From Pyramidobacter sp. YE332 (GTDB lineage Bacteria > Synergistota > Synergistia > Synergistales > Dethiosulfovibrionaceae): DNA of 64,000 nucleotides. A program made the position numbers and the translations under genes. The notes under the pieces were generated by a model that did no database searches, was not told the origin of the DNA, and was given only the letters and a program-made list of their open reading frames with translations. How positions within the stretch are numbered: position 1 is the stretch's first letter; each line of letters begins with the position of its first letter. The stretch lies in contig NZ_CP133038.1 of the NCBI RefSeq assembly GCF_033060595.1, positions 1,426,001 to 1,490,000 on the forward strand, read 5' to 3'. Of this stretch, positions 15,957 to 26,031 are shown in pieces.

Positions 15957-16027
15957 CATGGCGGAGGGAAGAGGATTTGAACCCCCGAGGGGCGTGAACC
16001 CCTGGCTGATTTCGAGTCAGCTGCCTT
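15957..16027 (+). repeat. Attachment site, left copy (attL side; 3' fragment of tRNA-Ser)
   Basis: 71 bp identical to 25961-26031. It contains the last ~69 nt of tRNA-Ser(CGA) on the minus strand, including the anticodon arm, variable arm, T arm and encoded CCA. The 5' part of the tRNA is absent here and unrelated sequence follows at 16028. This is the classic scar of site-specific integration into the 3' end of a tRNA gene. Confidence 0.92.
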
Positions 16028-16185: not shown

Positions 16186-17142
16186 ATGACATCCGCACGA
16201 ACGCTTTTCCTGATGAGCAACGGGCCCGTAACGTCGATCGATGAAGCCGCGCAAAGCTTTCTGACCTGCAAAACCGCCGCCAGAGCTGCGCCCAAGACGT
16301 GCAAGGAATACGCAAAGACGATCCGGCAATTCTTCGCCGCCTTCCCGCAAGCGTGGAGCAGCCCGCTGAAGATGCGCACCGCCTTCCTTTCGTGGCTCAG
16401 CCAGGAGGTCGCTCCCGCCACCTACAACCTGCGGCTGATCTACGTCCGCGCTTTCTGGCGCTGGTGTGTCGAAGAGGGGATACAGCAGCCGGAACCCGAT
16501 CCGTTCAGGGGCCTGAAGCGCCGCAGTGCGCCGGGACGGTTCCGCGACATCGACGCCGCGAAGGTGAAAGAGCTGCTGGCGCTTCCAGACCGTTCCACAT
16601 GGGCGGGGCTTCGGGACTACGCCCTGATCCTCTTCACGCTCGACACGGCCACGCGCCCCGGCGAAGCGCTCCAGCTGCTTCCGGCCGACTTCAACTTCTC
16701 TTCTCTCGCGGTCGTCATTCCGGCGCACGCCGCCAAGACCCGCGAAGAGAGGATCATCCCCCTCTCGCCGACCACGGCCGCCGCGCTGAGGCACGTCATG
16801 CAGCGCCGGCCGCGCGAATGGGACGCGGAAATGTATGTTTTCGCCAGCGTCACGGGGCGGCGTCTCGCCGTGGAACGCTGGAACGACCGTCTGAAAGGTT
16901 ATCGCTTGAAAGACGGCACCACGTTCAGGCCCTACGACCTGAGGCACGCCGCCTGCACGCTCCACCTCAGGGCCGGGATGAGCGGAGAAGTCCTTCAGCG
17001 CCTCATGGGCCATCATGGCCCGGAGATGACGCAGCGCTACATCCACCTGACCGCCGACGACCTCAGAAAAGAGCAGGCGCTCACTTCGCCCGCCGAACTG
17101 TTGGTTCCCGCGAGGAAAAGAGCGCCCAGAAAGATCGGATAA
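16186..17142 (+). CDS. int: Tyrosine-recombinase integrase of the element
   Basis: A 318-residue site-specific recombinase that would integrate and excise the element. The N-terminal SAM-like core-binding domain covers residues about 15-105, and the catalytic domain 115-300. Catalytic residues are visible: the first Arg in ATRPGEAL, the Lys region after VIPAHAAKTRE, the Arg in YDLRHAAC (Tyr in place of the first His of the HxxR box), His in GHHGPEM and the nucleophile Tyr in RYIHL. The ATG at 16186 follows AAGGAG at a 9-nt gap. It lies 160 bp from the left attachment site and points into the element. It is probably active. Confidence 0.92.
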   Translation: MTSARTLFLMSNGPVTSIDEAAQSFLTCKTAARAAPKTCKEYAKTIRQFFAAFPQAWSSPLKMRTAFLSWLSQEVAPATYNLRLIYVRAFWRWCVEEGIQQPEPDPFRGLKRRSAPGRFRDIDAAKVKELLALPDRSTWAGLRDYALILFTLDTATRPGEALQLLPADFNFSSLAVVIPAHAAKTREERIIPLSPTTAAALRHVMQRRPREWDAEMYVFASVTGRRLAVERWNDRLKGYRLKDGTTFRPYDLRHAACTLHLRAGMSGEVLQRLMGHHGPEMTQRYIHLTADDLRKEQALTSPAELLVPARKRAPRKIG

Positions 17143-18898: not shown

Positions 18899-19162
18899 AT
18901 GCCATTCAACTATAAACCGTTGTTCAAACTACTCATTGACAGAGGCATGAAGCGTGAAGACTTAAGGAAAACTGTCAATGCCTCTCGTACTACCTTCTCT
19001 AAAATGAGTAAGGGCGAATACGTGGCTCTCGAAGTGCTCGACCGCATCTGCTCCGCCCTGCGCGCGCCGATCCAGAACGTGATCGAGCACGAGCCTGCGG
19101 CCAGCGCTGAAGCCGACGAACCGGAAGCTGACCGCGAAGGGAAGGAGCAGGCTCATGATTAG
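18899..19162 (+). CDS. Cro/C1-type helix-turn-helix regulator
   Basis: An 87-residue DNA-binding protein. Residues about 5-65 form a Cro/C1-type (HTH_26-like) domain: YKPLFKLLIDRGMKREDLRK, then the recognition helix region SRTTFSKMSKGEYVALEVLDRIC. The tail is acidic and probably disordered. The ATG at 18899 follows AAAGGATG. The gene overlaps the Fic gene by 8 bp, so the two are co-translated. A regulator paired with Fic suggests autoregulation of the pair through the upstream inverted repeat. It could also be the element's maintenance repressor. Confidence 0.85.
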   Translation: MPFNYKPLFKLLIDRGMKREDLRKTVNASRTTFSKMSKGEYVALEVLDRICSALRAPIQNVIEHEPAASAEADEPEADREGKEQAHD

Positions 19163-19880
19163 CTATTCCCGCCTCGCGGAGCTGAAAGCCAGGCTCGACG
19201 CCTGCCGGCCATTGACGCCCGGAGAGCTGGAACGCCTTCGGGAACAGTTCACGATCGAGTACACCTACAACTCCAACGCCATCGAGGGCAACACGCTCAC
19301 GCTCAGGGAAACGGCGCTTGTGCTGGAAGGGATCACCATCGGCGAGAAGCCGCTGAAAGACCACCTGGAAGCCATCGGCCACCGCGACGCCTTCGCCTGC
19401 GTCGAGCGGCTCGTCTCGGAAAAAGAACCGCTGACGGAGTGGCGCATCCGGGAAATCCATTCCCTCGTACTCATGGACAGGCCGGAAGACAAGGGCCGGT
19501 ATCGGAAAGTGCCCGTCGTCATCGCTGGGGCTTTCCACACGCCGACGGAGCCGCTGCTGATCCATGAGGAAATGGCCGCCCTGCTGAGAGACTTCGCCGC
19601 CACGGACAAGAACGCGGTCGAGGCGGCGGCATTGTTCCATCTCCGCTTCGAGGGCATCCATCCCTTCATCGACGGCAACGGGCGCACGGGGCGGCTGCTG
19701 CTGAACTTCATGCTCATGCAGGCGGGCTTTCCGCCCGTCAACGTGAAATACAGCGATCGCCGCCGCTATTACGCCGCCTTTGATTCCTACTACAGAGACG
19801 GCGATTCCGCGCCGATGACCGGTCTGGTTAAGGAGTGCCTCGAGGCCCGTTTGCTGGAGTATTTGAAGGTACTGGATTGA
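19155..19880 (+). CDS. Fic-family AMP transferase with built-in inhibitory helix
   Basis: A 241-residue Fic-domain enzyme that would transfer AMP from ATP to hydroxyl groups of target proteins. The catalytic motif is intact: HPFIDGNGRTGR at about residues 172-183, with the essential His. The N-terminal inhibitory helix motif ([S/T]xxxE[G/N]) is present as SNAIEGN near residue 38, so this is a class II self-inhibited Fic and needs no separate antitoxin. The flap and beta-hairpin region (KVPVVIAGAFHTPTEP) is also clear. It overlaps the regulator gene by 8 bp. A role in stress control or in hampering competing phages is inference. Confidence 0.92.
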   Translation: MISYSRLAELKARLDACRPLTPGELERLREQFTIEYTYNSNAIEGNTLTLRETALVLEGITIGEKPLKDHLEAIGHRDAFACVERLVSEKEPLTEWRIREIHSLVLMDRPEDKGRYRKVPVVIAGAFHTPTEPLLIHEEMAALLRDFAATDKNAVEAAALFHLRFEGIHPFIDGNGRTGRLLLNFMLMQAGFPPVNVKYSDRRRYYAAFDSYYRDGDSAPMTGLVKECLEARLLEYLKVLD

Positions 19881-19907: not shown

Positions 19908-19936
19908 TTGACGCGTAATTCATCTTGCACTACAAT
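19908..19936 (+). promoter_or_regulatory. Promoter of the RelB/DinJ-like gene
   Basis: TTGACG (19908-19913), a 17-bp spacer and TACAAT (19931-19936) lie 20 bp before the start codon. This is a near-consensus sigma-70 promoter giving a very short leader. Confidence 0.7.
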
Positions 19937-19955
19937 ATTTTCAGAGGTGATGAAG

Positions 19956-20219
19956 ATGAACGCGGAGAATACAACCGTCGTCAACGTCCGCATGCCGCAG
20001 CAGATCAAGCACGACGCTCAGCAGATCCTTTCCGAACTTGGCCTCAGCACCAGCGACGCCGTGCGGCTGTTCTTTCGTCAGATCGTCGATGAAGGCGGTC
20101 TTCCCTTCCAGCCGCGCCTCAGCGCCGAAACGCTTCAGGCCATGGCCGACGCGGAAGCCGGAAGACTCGAAGAAGTGACGCTCGACCAGATGAAGGCCGA
20201 ACTTGATGCGATCCATTAA
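19956..20219 (+). CDS. RelB/DinJ-family antitoxin, no partner toxin seen
   Basis: 87 residues. The N-terminal half is a ribbon-helix-helix DNA-binding fold typical of DinJ/RelB (VVNVRMPQQIKHDAQQIL, then LGLSTSDAVRLFFRQIV). The C-terminal half is the toxin-binding tail. ATG 19956 has AGAGG 8 nt upstream; ATG 19950 is too close to it. In type II systems a YafQ/RelE toxin normally follows directly, but here a terminator comes 75 bp later and no toxin frame is present. It may be an orphan regulator, an anti-addiction antitoxin, or a relic. Confidence 0.85.
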   Translation: MNAENTTVVNVRMPQQIKHDAQQILSELGLSTSDAVRLFFRQIVDEGGLPFQPRLSAETLQAMADAEAGRLEEVTLDQMKAELDAIH

Positions 20220-20577: not shown

Positions 20578-20852
20578 GCCGCCAGCATCGCGCCGTGGAC
20601 TATGGCCATGTCGTCGTCGGTCGGGGCGCGGTTGACCCTCCGGATGAACTCCCGCCCTTGCAACGGACCGGGGGAAGGAACCTGATCGTCAGGCTCCAGA
20701 ACGGCGATCTTGTCAGCTGGGGAACGCGCCTGGTACAGCGTGGCCCTCGATCCGTCCGCGAAGGTGAGCTCGGCCATGGCCATGCGGTCAAAGCTCAAGC
20801 TCAGCCCGTTCTCTTCCATCAACCGCTGAAAATCTGTTCTCTCACTCTGCAT
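20529..20852 (-). CDS. Hypothetical protein next to the terminase small subunit
   Basis: 107 residues starting at ATG 20852, which overlaps the end of the terminase gene by 11 bp; a GTG four codons upstream is the alternative. It begins MQSERTDFQRLMEENG and holds a short beta segment (MAMAELTFADGSRATLYQA) followed by helices. No family is recognised. The tight overlap shows co-translation with the terminase small subunit. It may be a phage head-packaging accessory, but nothing in the sequence proves this. Confidence 0.55.
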   Translation of the reverse strand: MQSERTDFQRLMEENGLSLSFDRMAMAELTFADGSRATLYQARSPADKIAVLEPDDQVPSPGPLQGREFIRRVNRAPTDDDMAIVHGAMLAAWERIQEVGGILRAAI

Positions 20853-21279
20853 TGCTATCAGCACTCCCGTCTCTTACACCCTTGAGGAAGACGATGAACG
20901 GATCGTCCTCGCTCCCGATCTTGCTTGTGCCGCTCGTATCGCGATACAGCTTGTCCCGCTTCTCGATCCTCCACGCCGCGGCCTTCCAGTCGCGTTCTCC
21001 GGCCAGACCGATCACCTCCATGTCGTTCCGCGTCACCTCCGCGAAAGCGATGTTCACCTCCTTCACGAAGTCGTGGAACTTGCCGCGTTTTTCCTCTTTG
21101 CCGCGCCTCAGCCAGTTGTAAAAGGTCTGCCGCGTAATCCCTGCGACTGCCGCGGCGGTTTCTATGTACACGCCGCAGCGGATCGCGTCGATGATCTTGT
21201 CCTTCACCTCTTCCGTCAGCTTTTGCGGCATACCTGCTTTAGGACGCGCCAGCTTAACGCCCTTCGGCTTGCTTCCCAT
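20842..21279 (-). CDS. Phage terminase small subunit-like protein
   Basis: 145 residues. An N-terminal helix-turn-helix (AAAVAGITRQTFYNWLRRGK, residues about 45-64) is followed by the helical segment FVKEVNIAFAEVTRNDMEVI and the family's DWKAAAWRIEKRD motif. Together these mark DNA-recognising terminase small subunits, which select the genome for packaging. ATG 21279 has a TTAGGAGG site upstream. No large terminase subunit follows, which is what satellites do when they redirect a helper phage's packaging motor. In a deletion prophage it would be a leftover. The assignment is by motif. Confidence 0.72.
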   Translation of the reverse strand: MGSKPKGVKLARPKAGMPQKLTEEVKDKIIDAIRCGVYIETAAAVAGITRQTFYNWLRRGKEEKRGKFHDFVKEVNIAFAEVTRNDMEVIGLAGERDWKAAAWRIEKRDKLYRDTSGTSKIGSEDDPFIVFLKGVRDGSADSNAE

Positions 21280-21655: not shown

Positions 21656-22019
21656 CCTGAACGCCTCCGTTCTCATTCTCTACGCCCTTGCGGCGCTGTA
21701 TCGTCCTGACGACCATATCCACCAGTTCAGGCTTCTTCATCTGCGCCCAGTCGGCGTAGAAGCAGAGCCACGAGCGGGAAGCGTAGCCGTTCTGCTTGTC
21801 GTACTCGCTCTGCATGGCGGAGGGCCGGCAATGCCGCCCGCGCGTCCAGTTTCCGCCCTGGATCTCCAAAGCGACGCGCACGCGGGGCCATGCGACGTCA
21901 CTTCTCCAGAGCCGGTCAGGCCGGGCGAAGTGGTACTCAAAGAAGTACTCCTCGCCCGTCCGGCGGCTAATCTCTTCCGCAACGATCAGCTTGAGGGCGT
22001 CGCGCTGCTGATCAGTCAT
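21630..22019 (-). CDS. PD-(D/E)XK-type endonuclease-like protein
   Basis: 129 residues. The core RSDVAWPRVRVALEIQGG followed by NWTRGRHCRPSAMQSEYDK has the Asp...Glu-x-Gln pattern of a restriction-type nuclease fold. It is common in phage proteins of the DUF559/VSR-like kind. ATG 22019 has GGAGGG 8 nt upstream; an in-frame start at 22076 lacks one. It lies between the primase-helicase and the terminase small subunit, where phages often keep Holliday-junction or packaging nucleases. Its substrate is not known. Confidence 0.6.
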   Translation of the reverse strand: MTDQQRDALKLIVAEEISRRTGEEYFFEYHFARPDRLWRSDVAWPRVRVALEIQGGNWTRGRHCRPSAMQSEYDKQNGYASRSWLCFYADWAQMKKPELVDMVVRTIQRRKGVENENGGVQGELFRSER

Positions 22020-22208
22020 CCGTCTCACCCTCCAGCCATAAGTCAGGCGGTGAAATCGCCACACGATCCCTGCCAAAGTCCGCCCGCTCTCCGAACTGAT
22101 TCAGCAACGCCTGGCGAACAACTTCGGGCGAGCATCCCGCCCTTTCCGCAAGGGAAGAAATGGGGGCGGAGAATTTTTGCAGGATAAATCCCGTTTTTTC
22201 GTACTCGC

Positions 22209-24446
22209 TTAAACAACCAGGGGGGCTGTTACGCTTGTTACGCTGTTACGCTTTTCGCCTAAACCATTGGTATCACTGCTTCGGATAGGCGTAACAACAG
22301 GCGTAACAGAAGCGTAACAGCCTCGTTCTTGCCCAACCGTAACACCCGTAACAGGCGTAACGGGCGTAACAGGCGTAACAGGCGTAACAGAAAAGAGAGA
22401 GAGATTATTATCTTCTTCTTTTATAGGGGGAACTTCTTTTTCTTCGCGGCACAGGGCTGCTTCTTCTGCGAGGTAATAACTGCCGTCGCTGAACCGCTGG
22501 AGCTGGCCCGCGTCTTTGAGGCGCTTAACATACATCCGGACATTTTGCGGAGAAATTCCCGCCGCTTCCGCGATCTGCTTGGGCGACATCGGCGCGCCGG
22601 TTTCTTCCAGAGCGTCGAAGATGGCCCTCGCTGTGCCGGTTTCCTTCTCGCGGCGCTCTTTGTAGATCTCTTCCGGCGTGGAGAGACGCCAGCCCGCGGG
22701 CTTCGTCCAACGGATGGGAATATCGTCGGTACAGTTCATGTCTCGTCCCGTCCGCTCGATCACTGCCGTTTCGCGCTGTCCCTCACGCTTCAGGGCGAGG
22801 ATCGCATCCGCCGCGCTCGGTAGCCCCATGGAACCGGACAGCCCTTCCAGCATCTCACCGCTTGCCGCACCGCCTTTTTTCAGGTGGTGGACGAGAAGGA
22901 TCGGCGTATCCGTCATATCGGCCAGTGCTTTCAATGGGCCGACGGCCTTATAGTCGGCTTCGTAGGCGTTCAGGCCTTTGTCCGTGCCCGCTGGCTTCAC
23001 CTTGTTCCAGACGTCGATAACTACGAGCGAAGGGCTATTTTCAACGACCCATTCCAGCAGTAGCTCAAGCCCTCCGGCGTCGAGGCGTGGGAAGGTCGTT
23101 GTGAAGCTCATGACAGAGGGAACGCCACCCATAGGGTAGAGCAGCTGGAGCCGCTCTTTTAAACGTGCCTGAGTGTCTTCCAGAGCCGCATAGAGTACGG
23201 CCCCCTGCGTCGTCTTCATGCCAAGGAAGGGCTTTCCAGCCGCGACCGCCGCCCCCATTTGCAGAACGAGCCAGCTCTTGCCCTTCTTGGCAATCGAGGC
23301 AAGCACGGTCAGCCCCGAAGGAACAAGCCCCTCGACCGCCCACTTCTTGGCTTCGAATCTTGTGGCCATGAGCGCAGACGCGCTAATAAACTTTGGCTTG
23401 TTCCGCGTCGCTTCCGAAGCCTGCATCTTGCGCAGCATCCGCGACAGCTTCAGACGCTTCTCAAACTCCGTGCGGGCGGCCTCGAAGCCCTTGGCGAGAA
23501 CAACGTCGTTCCAGTCGATGTTGCTCTCCCCTTGGGGAATGGCTTTCAGGGCGTCGGGAATCGCGGGGCGCAGGGTATCATTTTCGTGCCCCCGTCCGCG
23601 CTTTTTCGCTTCGCCCAGCCGCACGGCATTGTAGGCGTCTTCTCCGGTTTCGCCCGCGTCGGTGGCGATGACGATCTCCCTGCCCGGGAACCGCGAAGAA
23701 AAAGCCGCCGCCACGACGGACACATTCCCCGCCCCGAAGCAGCAGATCGCGCGCGCAGAATCGCCGACAAAGCGTTTCACCGTTGCCGCAGTGGCCATGC
23801 CCTCGCAGAAGACGAGTGGCGCGTCTTTCCCGGAACACGTTCCGGCTTCCCAGTAGCCGCCCTCTTTAATGCCAAGATCGCGCTTGCCCCACTTGCCATC
23901 AGCCTTGAAGCAGTCGATCAGTTCCACGCCGACGAGCTGATCCGTCTTCGCGTCCTTCACGGGGACGATCAGCTGCCCGCGGCGGGGGATTTTCTGGTAC
24001 GGCTTCGGCAAAGCGGGGCCGCTAAAGGGAAGCACTCGCAACGCAAGGCCTGTTACATCGATCCGCTTGGCTTTCAGGTATTCATGGCTCTGCACGTCTT
24101 TCTCCGTCGCCATCTCCCACACGGCACGGGCCGCCTCGATCTTTTCCCTCTCCGCTGCTGCGGCTTTGGCGTCCCGCTCTTTCCTCGAGGAAGAAGAAGT
24201 CCCGCCGCCCGCGTATTCCGGCGCTGGAACGCCCAGACGGCCGGCAAGGTCAGTCAGCGTGCCGCTCTCGTCGGTACCAAGATCGTGCCAGCAGCCTTTT
24301 TCAAAGTTGACCGTAAAGGAGGGGCTGCGGTCTTCCCGCAGCGGCGAGCTCATGACCACCTCGTCTCCGCCTCTCCTTAGCTTCTCGACTCGAGACTCGA
24401 CGTGCTTCTCGAACCACGCGGCGTTCATGTCTCGCTGGCTAAGCAT
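22209..24446 (-). CDS. Primase-helicase replication protein of the element
   Basis: A 745-residue multidomain protein. Residues about 25-75 resemble the start of a CHC2-like primase without the zinc cysteines (SPLREDRSPSFTVNF). Residues about 205-270 form a TOPRIM fold (LVFCEGMATA, later IVIATDAGETG). Residues about 370-560 form a RepA/DnaB-type ATPase with Walker A-like ASIAKKGKSWL, Walker B SLVVIDVW and a VHHLKK motif. A winged helix follows near 610-670. The C-terminal ~60 residues are VTP repeats encoded by an array of CGTAAC units. It would prime and unwind the element's own DNA. It corresponds functionally to the pri-rep genes of satellites and P4-like elements. ATG 24446 was chosen over GTG 24449. 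Confidence 0.85.
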   Translation of the reverse strand: MLSQRDMNAAWFEKHVESRVEKLRRGGDEVVMSSPLREDRSPSFTVNFEKGCWHDLGTDESGTLTDLAGRLGVPAPEYAGGGTSSSSRKERDAKAAAAEREKIEAARAVWEMATEKDVQSHEYLKAKRIDVTGLALRVLPFSGPALPKPYQKIPRRGQLIVPVKDAKTDQLVGVELIDCFKADGKWGKRDLGIKEGGYWEAGTCSGKDAPLVFCEGMATAATVKRFVGDSARAICCFGAGNVSVVAAAFSSRFPGREIVIATDAGETGEDAYNAVRLGEAKKRGRGHENDTLRPAIPDALKAIPQGESNIDWNDVVLAKGFEAARTEFEKRLKLSRMLRKMQASEATRNKPKFISASALMATRFEAKKWAVEGLVPSGLTVLASIAKKGKSWLVLQMGAAVAAGKPFLGMKTTQGAVLYAALEDTQARLKERLQLLYPMGGVPSVMSFTTTFPRLDAGGLELLLEWVVENSPSLVVIDVWNKVKPAGTDKGLNAYEADYKAVGPLKALADMTDTPILLVHHLKKGGAASGEMLEGLSGSMGLPSAADAILALKREGQRETAVIERTGRDMNCTDDIPIRWTKPAGWRLSTPEEIYKERREKETGTARAIFDALEETGAPMSPKQIAEAAGISPQNVRMYVKRLKDAGQLQRFSDGSYYLAEEAALCREEKEVPPIKEEDNNLSLFSVTPVTPVTPVTPVTGVTVGQERGCYASVTPVVTPIRSSDTNGLGEKRNSVTSVTAPLVV
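22228..22388. repeat. Iteron-like array at the 3' end of the primase-helicase gene
   Basis: Twelve copies of CGTAAC (usually GCGTAACA) fall in 161 bp. Three are inverted (22228, 22237, 22245). Nine are direct (22290, 22302, 22313, then six at exactly 9-bp intervals from 22338 to 22383). An A/T-rich stretch follows at 22390-22440. The array encodes the VTP repeats in the protein tail. Short repeats in two orientations beside an A/T-rich zone at the end of a rep gene are how plasmid and satellite origins look, so this is a candidate origin. Confidence 0.6.
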
Positions 24447-24873
24447 CACTCGCCGCCCCCTTCCCCGCGCCGATCAAAATGTATTTCCCTTCAATGGCCA
24501 GTACTGGCCAGCCGTCGGCGCGCAGATATCCCATGATACGCGCCAGCTCATCAGGCGATACGCCCGGAACGGCCTCTACGGCATCCCCGCGAAGGAGAGA
24601 TTGAAGCACGGCCCGCTTTCTCTTAATGTCTTCCGGCGTCTGCTCCAAAGAGTAGCGCGCCAGCCCGGATACGCCACCGACGTCAACCATCTCTGTTCTT
24701 ATGGGGAAGCCAAAGTCGTTCCGCAGCTCGCTGATACGGGCCGCCAGCCGCCGCACTCCGTAAAGCGCCTGCGCTTCGTCCTGCGTCAGCGTCCTGCCGC
24801 TTTTCAGGTGGCGCAGCACAAGCGCCCGCTGCGTTCTCGCCGCTGCTTTATTGATACTTTCCTGCGCGCTCAT
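24439..24873 (-). CDS. Helix-turn-helix protein upstream of the primase-helicase
   Basis: 144 residues. The N-terminal region LRHLKSGRTLTQDEAQALYG followed by VRRLAARISELRNDFGFPI is a winged-helix-type domain widely found in small phage proteins of replication modules. It overlaps the next gene (primase-helicase) by 8 bp and the previous one by 4 bp, so the three are co-translated. It may be a replication accessory or origin-binding factor, by position only. Confidence 0.65.
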   Translation of the reverse strand: MSAQESINKAAARTQRALVLRHLKSGRTLTQDEAQALYGVRRLAARISELRNDFGFPIRTEMVDVGGVSGLARYSLEQTPEDIKRKRAVLQSLLRGDAVEAVPGVSPDELARIMGYLRADGWPVLAIEGKYILIGAGKGAASDA

Positions 24874-25960: not shown

Positions 25961-26031
25961 CATGGCGGAGGGAAGAGGATTTGAACCCCCGAGGGGCGTG
26001 AACCCCTGGCTGATTTCGAGTCAGCTGCCTT
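25961..26031 (+). repeat. Attachment site, right copy (within intact tRNA-Ser)
   Basis: 71 bp identical to 15957-16027. Because the intact tRNA is at this end, its last ~69 nt were supplied by the element. Confidence 0.92.

Follow-up and report, generated by a model that had tools for sequence, protein, structure and literature searches.

Replication of PICIs starts from origins immediately downstream of rep, in which an A/T-rich region is flanked by two iteron sets (PMC6092414). In PLEs, the initiator's DNA-binding domain is exchanged along with the origin (PMC8263062), and the lambda origin is located within gene O, where it encodes a portion of the initiator (PMC6022878). In Streptococcus phage Sfi21, the annotated origin is a 302-bp non-coding region that follows a primase gene.

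We analyzed a 64-kb window (the whole stretch of 64,000 nucleotides) from Pyramidobacter sp. YE332, in which a primase-helicase gene, rep, ends in an array of short repeated words. Several traits are shared with PICI and SaPI origins: the candidate origin is found where its initiator's gene ends (3′), short iterons occur in two sets, their words are specific to the element, and Rep is a primase-helicase. The candidate origin differs in that the array lies inside rep, an 18-bp core is placed between the blocks, and Rep is of the AAA_25 rather than the D5 type. In PICIs the two iteron sets follow the Rep gene, whereas here they overlap its 3′ end, and the A/T-rich region is found not between the sets but as a 69% AT tract outside the left block. 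A D5 Rep from Synergistota with this array type matched PDB entries 7ola and 7om0 ("DNA primase"), which we take to be SaPI Rep structures. The Sfi21 origin is similar in carrying AGTAAC (GTAAC-type) words on both sides, an A/T-rich tract and a core-like TTGATATATAAGGGGTTTG, but it is non-coding, its core is two bases longer and degenerate, and its Rep is different. As in lambda, the array codes for part of its own initiator; lambda O, however, is an initiator without a helicase, and the lambda iterons are longer and located mid-gene. As in PLE, the DNA-binding domain and the origin appear to be exchanged jointly, whereas PLE uses a RepA_N initiator and intergenic, semi-palindromic repeats of ~30 bp. 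Rep also resembles the alpha protein of phage P4, a single chain that combines primase and helicase with an origin-binding domain, although the P4 ori and crr are located apart from the alpha gene. The kind of origin is known; what varies here is the AAA_25 Rep, the in-gene array and the conserved core.

The element, its rep gene and the repeat array

The window contains an integrated element of ~10 kb, flanked by a 71-bp direct repeat of tRNA-Ser sequence. The two copies are identical, one located beside the integrase gene (15957..16027, minus strand) and the other in tRNA-Ser(cga) (25961..26031, minus strand). The element encodes a tyrosine integrase (16186..17142, plus strand; PF00589, 3e-28; phrog_1) and a TerS-like terminase small subunit (20842..21279, minus strand; phrog_4102, 3e-27), and no structural phage gene was found among the element ORFs examined with Pfam and PHROGs. 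PICIs likewise combine an integrase with a specific attachment site, and some carry a terS homolog. The element is satellite-like and integrative. The only close relative that carries a name is a Pyramidobacter contig. By eye, we also noted a protein with a Fic-like motif, HPFIDGNGRTGRL, within the element (19155-19880, plus strand), followed by a small RelB-like protein (19908-20219).

Rep is encoded on the minus strand (22209..24449) and matched DNA primase in PHROGs. Its domains comprise a Zn ribbon (a weak Pfam match), Toprim_3, AAA_25, a winged helix and a C-terminal tail of 60 residues with VTP repeats. These matches agree with the initial annotation, which had placed the array at the 3′ end of a primase-helicase gene. 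The winged-helix domain (approximately residues 606-661; 22467..22634, minus strand; HTH_20, 2.5e-8) is the predicted iteron reader. An AlphaFold model of residues 590-672, computed from the single sequence, had a mean pLDDT of 81, and a PDB search returned winged-helix domains. In this model, helix 45-57 of the fragment, corresponding to Rep residues 634-646 (22512..22550, minus strand), occupies the recognition-helix position of the winged-helix fold and is the predicted recognition helix. Compared with two close homologs, L003 and L004, the window rep is frameshifted by 1 nt within a run of C residues immediately after the last iteron. By the L004 reading, the shift removes ~66 C-terminal residues, the out-of-frame remnant of which spans 22010..22215 (minus strand) and is in frame in L004; the shift may be a sequencing error.

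A phylum-wide search identified Rep homologs in 47 of 188 Synergistota genomes. No close protein relatives were found in viral contigs, protein searches of phage and plasmid records returned only distant helicase or primase matches, and no clear array was present downstream of rep in Caldicellulosiruptor plasmid pATHE01. One homolog (L005, genome G118) has an N-terminal third close to that of the window Rep and a remainder that is only distantly similar, suggesting that it is probably a recombinant. It ends shortly past the winged helix, and its contig stops before any array.

The initial annotation had described twelve CGTAAC units, nine direct and three inverted with six at 9-bp spacing, and all were recovered. 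The direct copies are located on the plus strand at 22290, 22302, 22313, 22338, 22347, 22356, 22365, 22374 and 22383, the last six being spaced by exactly 9 bp, and the inverted copies at 22228, 22237 and 22245. Read on the minus strand, nine GTTACG words form a left block (22290..22388), and three inverted words, with steps of 8 and 9 bp, form a right block (22228..22250). The description as plain direct and inverted repeats was nevertheless incomplete, in that the array is organized around an 18-bp core, AGTGATACCAATGGTTTA (22260..22277, minus strand), which lies between the blocks and is the conserved part among relatives. The A/T-rich stretch said to adjoin the array at the rep 3′ end corresponds to a tract beyond the left block (22389..22442, minus strand) that is a candidate for unwinding, with an AT content of 69% compared with 42% for the element and 54% between the blocks. 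Within the rep ORF, the array occupies approximately codons 688-741, among the final 60. CGTAAC occurs 30 times in the window against 16.1 expected, with 12 of the copies within 161 bp, and the 12-word array has a single occurrence in the 2.8-Mb genome.

Most of the words read as VT in a single frame. Keeping the protein fixed and redrawing codons from rep's own usage, we obtained at most 8 words in the rep tail compared with the 12 observed (0/20,000 shuffles reached 12), so the protein sequence alone does not account for the repeats. Identical codons could likewise arise by tandem slippage, and we therefore compared relatives.

Geometry, words and predicted reader helix in homologs

The L003 Rep is 86% identical to that of the window, and its array has the same word, GTTACG. 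L004 (85% identical) shows the same layout with the word GCAACG, and L008 (37% identical) uses TAAACG; in L006 and L009 the word is TGCAAC and the array is located further inside the gene. Measured from the core, the words are positioned at -30 and -18 on one side and +10, +18 and +27 on the other in the window and L003, at -29, -17 and +10, +18, +27 in L004, at -19 and +11, +19, +28 in L006, and at -29, -17 and +9, +18, +27 in L008. The inner words of the homologs are at most one base from the window's positions; L004, L006 and L007 carry degraded versions of the core. The first two inverted words are separated by an 8-bp step in the window, L003, L004 and L006, across three different words, and by 9 bp in L008. 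The 8-bp step in the right block places words outside one codon frame, and a repeat peptide therefore cannot impose the spacing.

The tail peptides vary along with the words (VTP, AT, VN and VA). The initial annotation had proposed that the DNA repeats force the VTP tail. The proposal holds insofar as homolog peptides change with the word, whereas the VTP peptide turned out to be no conserved feature. A homolog keeping the tail and losing the DNA repeats, which was to count against an origin, was not found; the opposite was seen, with the peptide altered and the array geometry kept. At synonymous sites, where conservation had been suggested as a check, the word codons are all identical between the window and L003, whereas the gene body has differences at 63 of its 317 fourfold sites. 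Both outcomes favor a function at the DNA level. Across the whole rep tail 3 of 39 fourfold sites differ, a modest conservation because the two genes are close.

A significant array at the rep 3′ end was detected in 19 of 27 homologs, nearly all with their own word, with 0/200 shuffles matching; upstream control windows contained at most 5 word copies. The other eight homologs had no array in this 3′-end scan, in which some 3′ ends were short; L006 and L009 are among these eight, and their arrays are located outside the scan window. In most relatives, as read in the more distant homologs, the array lies past the stop codon, so its coding role is dispensable. Within Synergistota, arrays of this type also follow replication genes of the VapE, D5 and Toprim-DnaB kinds.

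L004 is the closest homolog with an altered word, and its Rep is ~93% identical to the window's through the helicase. Within residues 631-644, however, 10 of 14 residues differ, compared with 3 of 61 in the rest of 586-660 (Fisher 3e-7), and the region of the predicted recognition helix is thereby replaced. In the L003 Rep, which shares the window's word, the same segment has one difference. The window and L004 would form a natural specificity swap. In an independent set of D5-type Reps, L129 and L130 differ from L131 in the word at the same base, AGTGCCCT becoming AGTGCTCT in 9 of 9 words of the compared stretch, and their Reps are nearly identical, with differences mainly at the C-terminal end. 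In this second pair, a one-base word change is narrowed to very few residues. Because close relatives changed the word and not the geometry, word, spacing and reading helix are separable.

A predicted replication origin and competing readings

We consider it highly probable, from these comparisons, that the array is a PICI/SaPI-like iteron replication origin of the satellite-like element, bound by the winged helix of its own Rep and embedded in rep. The C-terminal winged helix would bind the GTTACG iterons of the two convergent blocks around the core, and the Toprim/AAA_25 primase-helicase part of Rep would then load. The adjacent A/T-rich tract would probably be melted, and copying would be expected to start after excision of the element. 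Twelve copies of a word specific to the cognate Rep and an adjacent A/T-rich region (22389-22442, the candidate unwinding region) are what iteron origins have, and iterons in the initiator coding sequence are what characterizes the lambda O type. The evidence at the sequence level comprises the array and its unique site, the constant geometry with changing words, the covariation of word and helix, and the non-coding arrays of relatives. The origin-like layout noted in the initial annotation is supported by the conserved geometry and the word/helix covariation, with origin activity as the predicted consequence. Its suggestion that one stretch may serve as both origin and coding sequence likewise fits an array that lies within rep and recurs with the same geometry and other words.

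With the putative origin placed in the last rep codons, the 9-bp-spaced iterons are translated as a VTP-repeat tail. This tail appears to be tolerated rather than selected, a by-product of the DNA signal, because relatives keep the spacing and swap the word together with the predicted reader part of Rep. The locus provides a clean comparative case of coding sequence explained by a DNA signal. The converse, that the protein tail is selected and the repeats reflect codon slippage in a VTP-repeat peptide, would account for most words reading as VT in one frame, and where GTTACG arrays occur in unrelated viral proteins, most encode VTG/VTP repeats of collagen-like type. We judge it very unlikely, given that homologs with AT, VN and VA peptides share the DNA geometry, that the frame-breaking step is retained with three different words, and that the array is non-coding in most of the more distant relatives read. 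No synonymous shuffle yielded the twelve words, and the window rep is itself frameshifted just past the array.

The array could instead be a Rep-bound control site, acting in autorepression, incompatibility or copy control, with the true origin elsewhere in the element. A protein bound at the rep 3′ end could affect downstream transcription, and the support for the array as an initiation site is comparative; moreover, Rep-binding iterons often serve both control and origin. We regard a pure control site as improbable, since an operator acting on a promoter should lie upstream of rep and the layout is also like the annotated Sfi21 origin. A two-block array with a core and a nearby A/T tract at the rep 3′ end further matches tested PICI origins (PMC6092414). 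We also considered an attP-type recombination site consisting of the core and integrase arm-type sites, as the core also occurs at attachment sites immediately 3′ of tRNA genes, in many cases with two copies of one variable short word behind it. This reading, which we rejected on element anatomy, seems the remotest: the element's own att is the 71-bp tRNA-Ser repeat, located 4-6 kb away, and the core is absent from this integration junction. Such arrays also follow rep rather than integrase genes, and their word covaries with the Rep helix.

The 18-bp core at other loci

Allowing at most one mismatch, the core pattern was found 93 times in Synergistota genomes compared with 16 times for the reversed pattern, among the matches listed. 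They included iteron arrays near rep, positions immediately 3′ of tRNA genes and, in one genome, a repeated unit. In viral contigs, an iteron array was present at the core in 29 of 130 distinct matches compared with 3 of 94 for the reversed control (Fisher 2e-5), again among the matches listed, both scans being samples. Genes beside these arrays, as assigned by Pfam, were D5, VapE, AAA_25, DUF3987 and O-like replication genes, and in a Streptococcus parauberis phage contig the core is located ~200 bp downstream of the primase gene. A further viral-contig scan, with four GTTACG at 9-bp spacing as the marker, was discarded: its matches were mostly collagen-like or unrelated proteins, so the 9-bp spacing alone is uninformative.

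As the core is also found beside tRNA attachment sites, its role is not replication-specific; we tentatively infer that a shared protein with a bending or architectural function probably binds it. More broadly, the 18-bp core AGTNATANCAANGGTTTA could be a landmark of phage and satellite iteron origins with unrelated Reps and of tRNA attachment sites, recognized by one widespread host or architectural protein, with only the words and the matching Rep helix private to each element. We find this plausible and lean slightly against it. If the core is general, the origins of many uncharacterized phages and satellites, and the word of each Rep, would be predictable from sequence. Reading the core as an IHF site was only a guess: 13 bases, TATCAAGGGTTTA, fit the IHF consensus WATCAANNNNTTR, but the arrays vary at the third base. 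A likeness to pC194-type rolling-circle origins was considered and dropped, no HUH Rep having been seen. The open-access literature searched contained no relevant paper with the exact core, and an earlier description is possible. Bacillus phage phi105, whose Rep is homologous to that of L302, has no core within 2 mismatches, and two viral contigs had no DNA matches in phage records.

Core sequences directly 3′ of tRNA genes (Gly, Val, Ala, Thr, Arg and Glu) were observed at L111, L119, L122, L126, L127 and L143, and further such loci include L145, L146, L164, L166 and L183, among others. A terminator-like hairpin comes after these cores, and in many cases a variable word is present twice, ~13 nt apart; the paired words are perhaps integrase arm-type sites. 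A multi-copy unit in genome G095 (L121, L148, L149, L150 and L151), AACGCATCAGGAAGGGCTAAAGCATTG ... GCGTTTGCCCTG, also contains a core-like sequence. At L137, two spacers between CRISPR-like repeats GTTTCAATCCACGCTCCCCGTGTGGGGAGCGAC (approximately positions 1164 and 1500, minus-strand reading) end in AGTGATACCAACGGTTTC, and a host CRISPR array thus appears to target the core region. One phage-like contig (G084:C11) carries two core arrays with ATGTTCC words ~25 kb apart (L200 and L141), one of which is located between structural genes and not beside rep.
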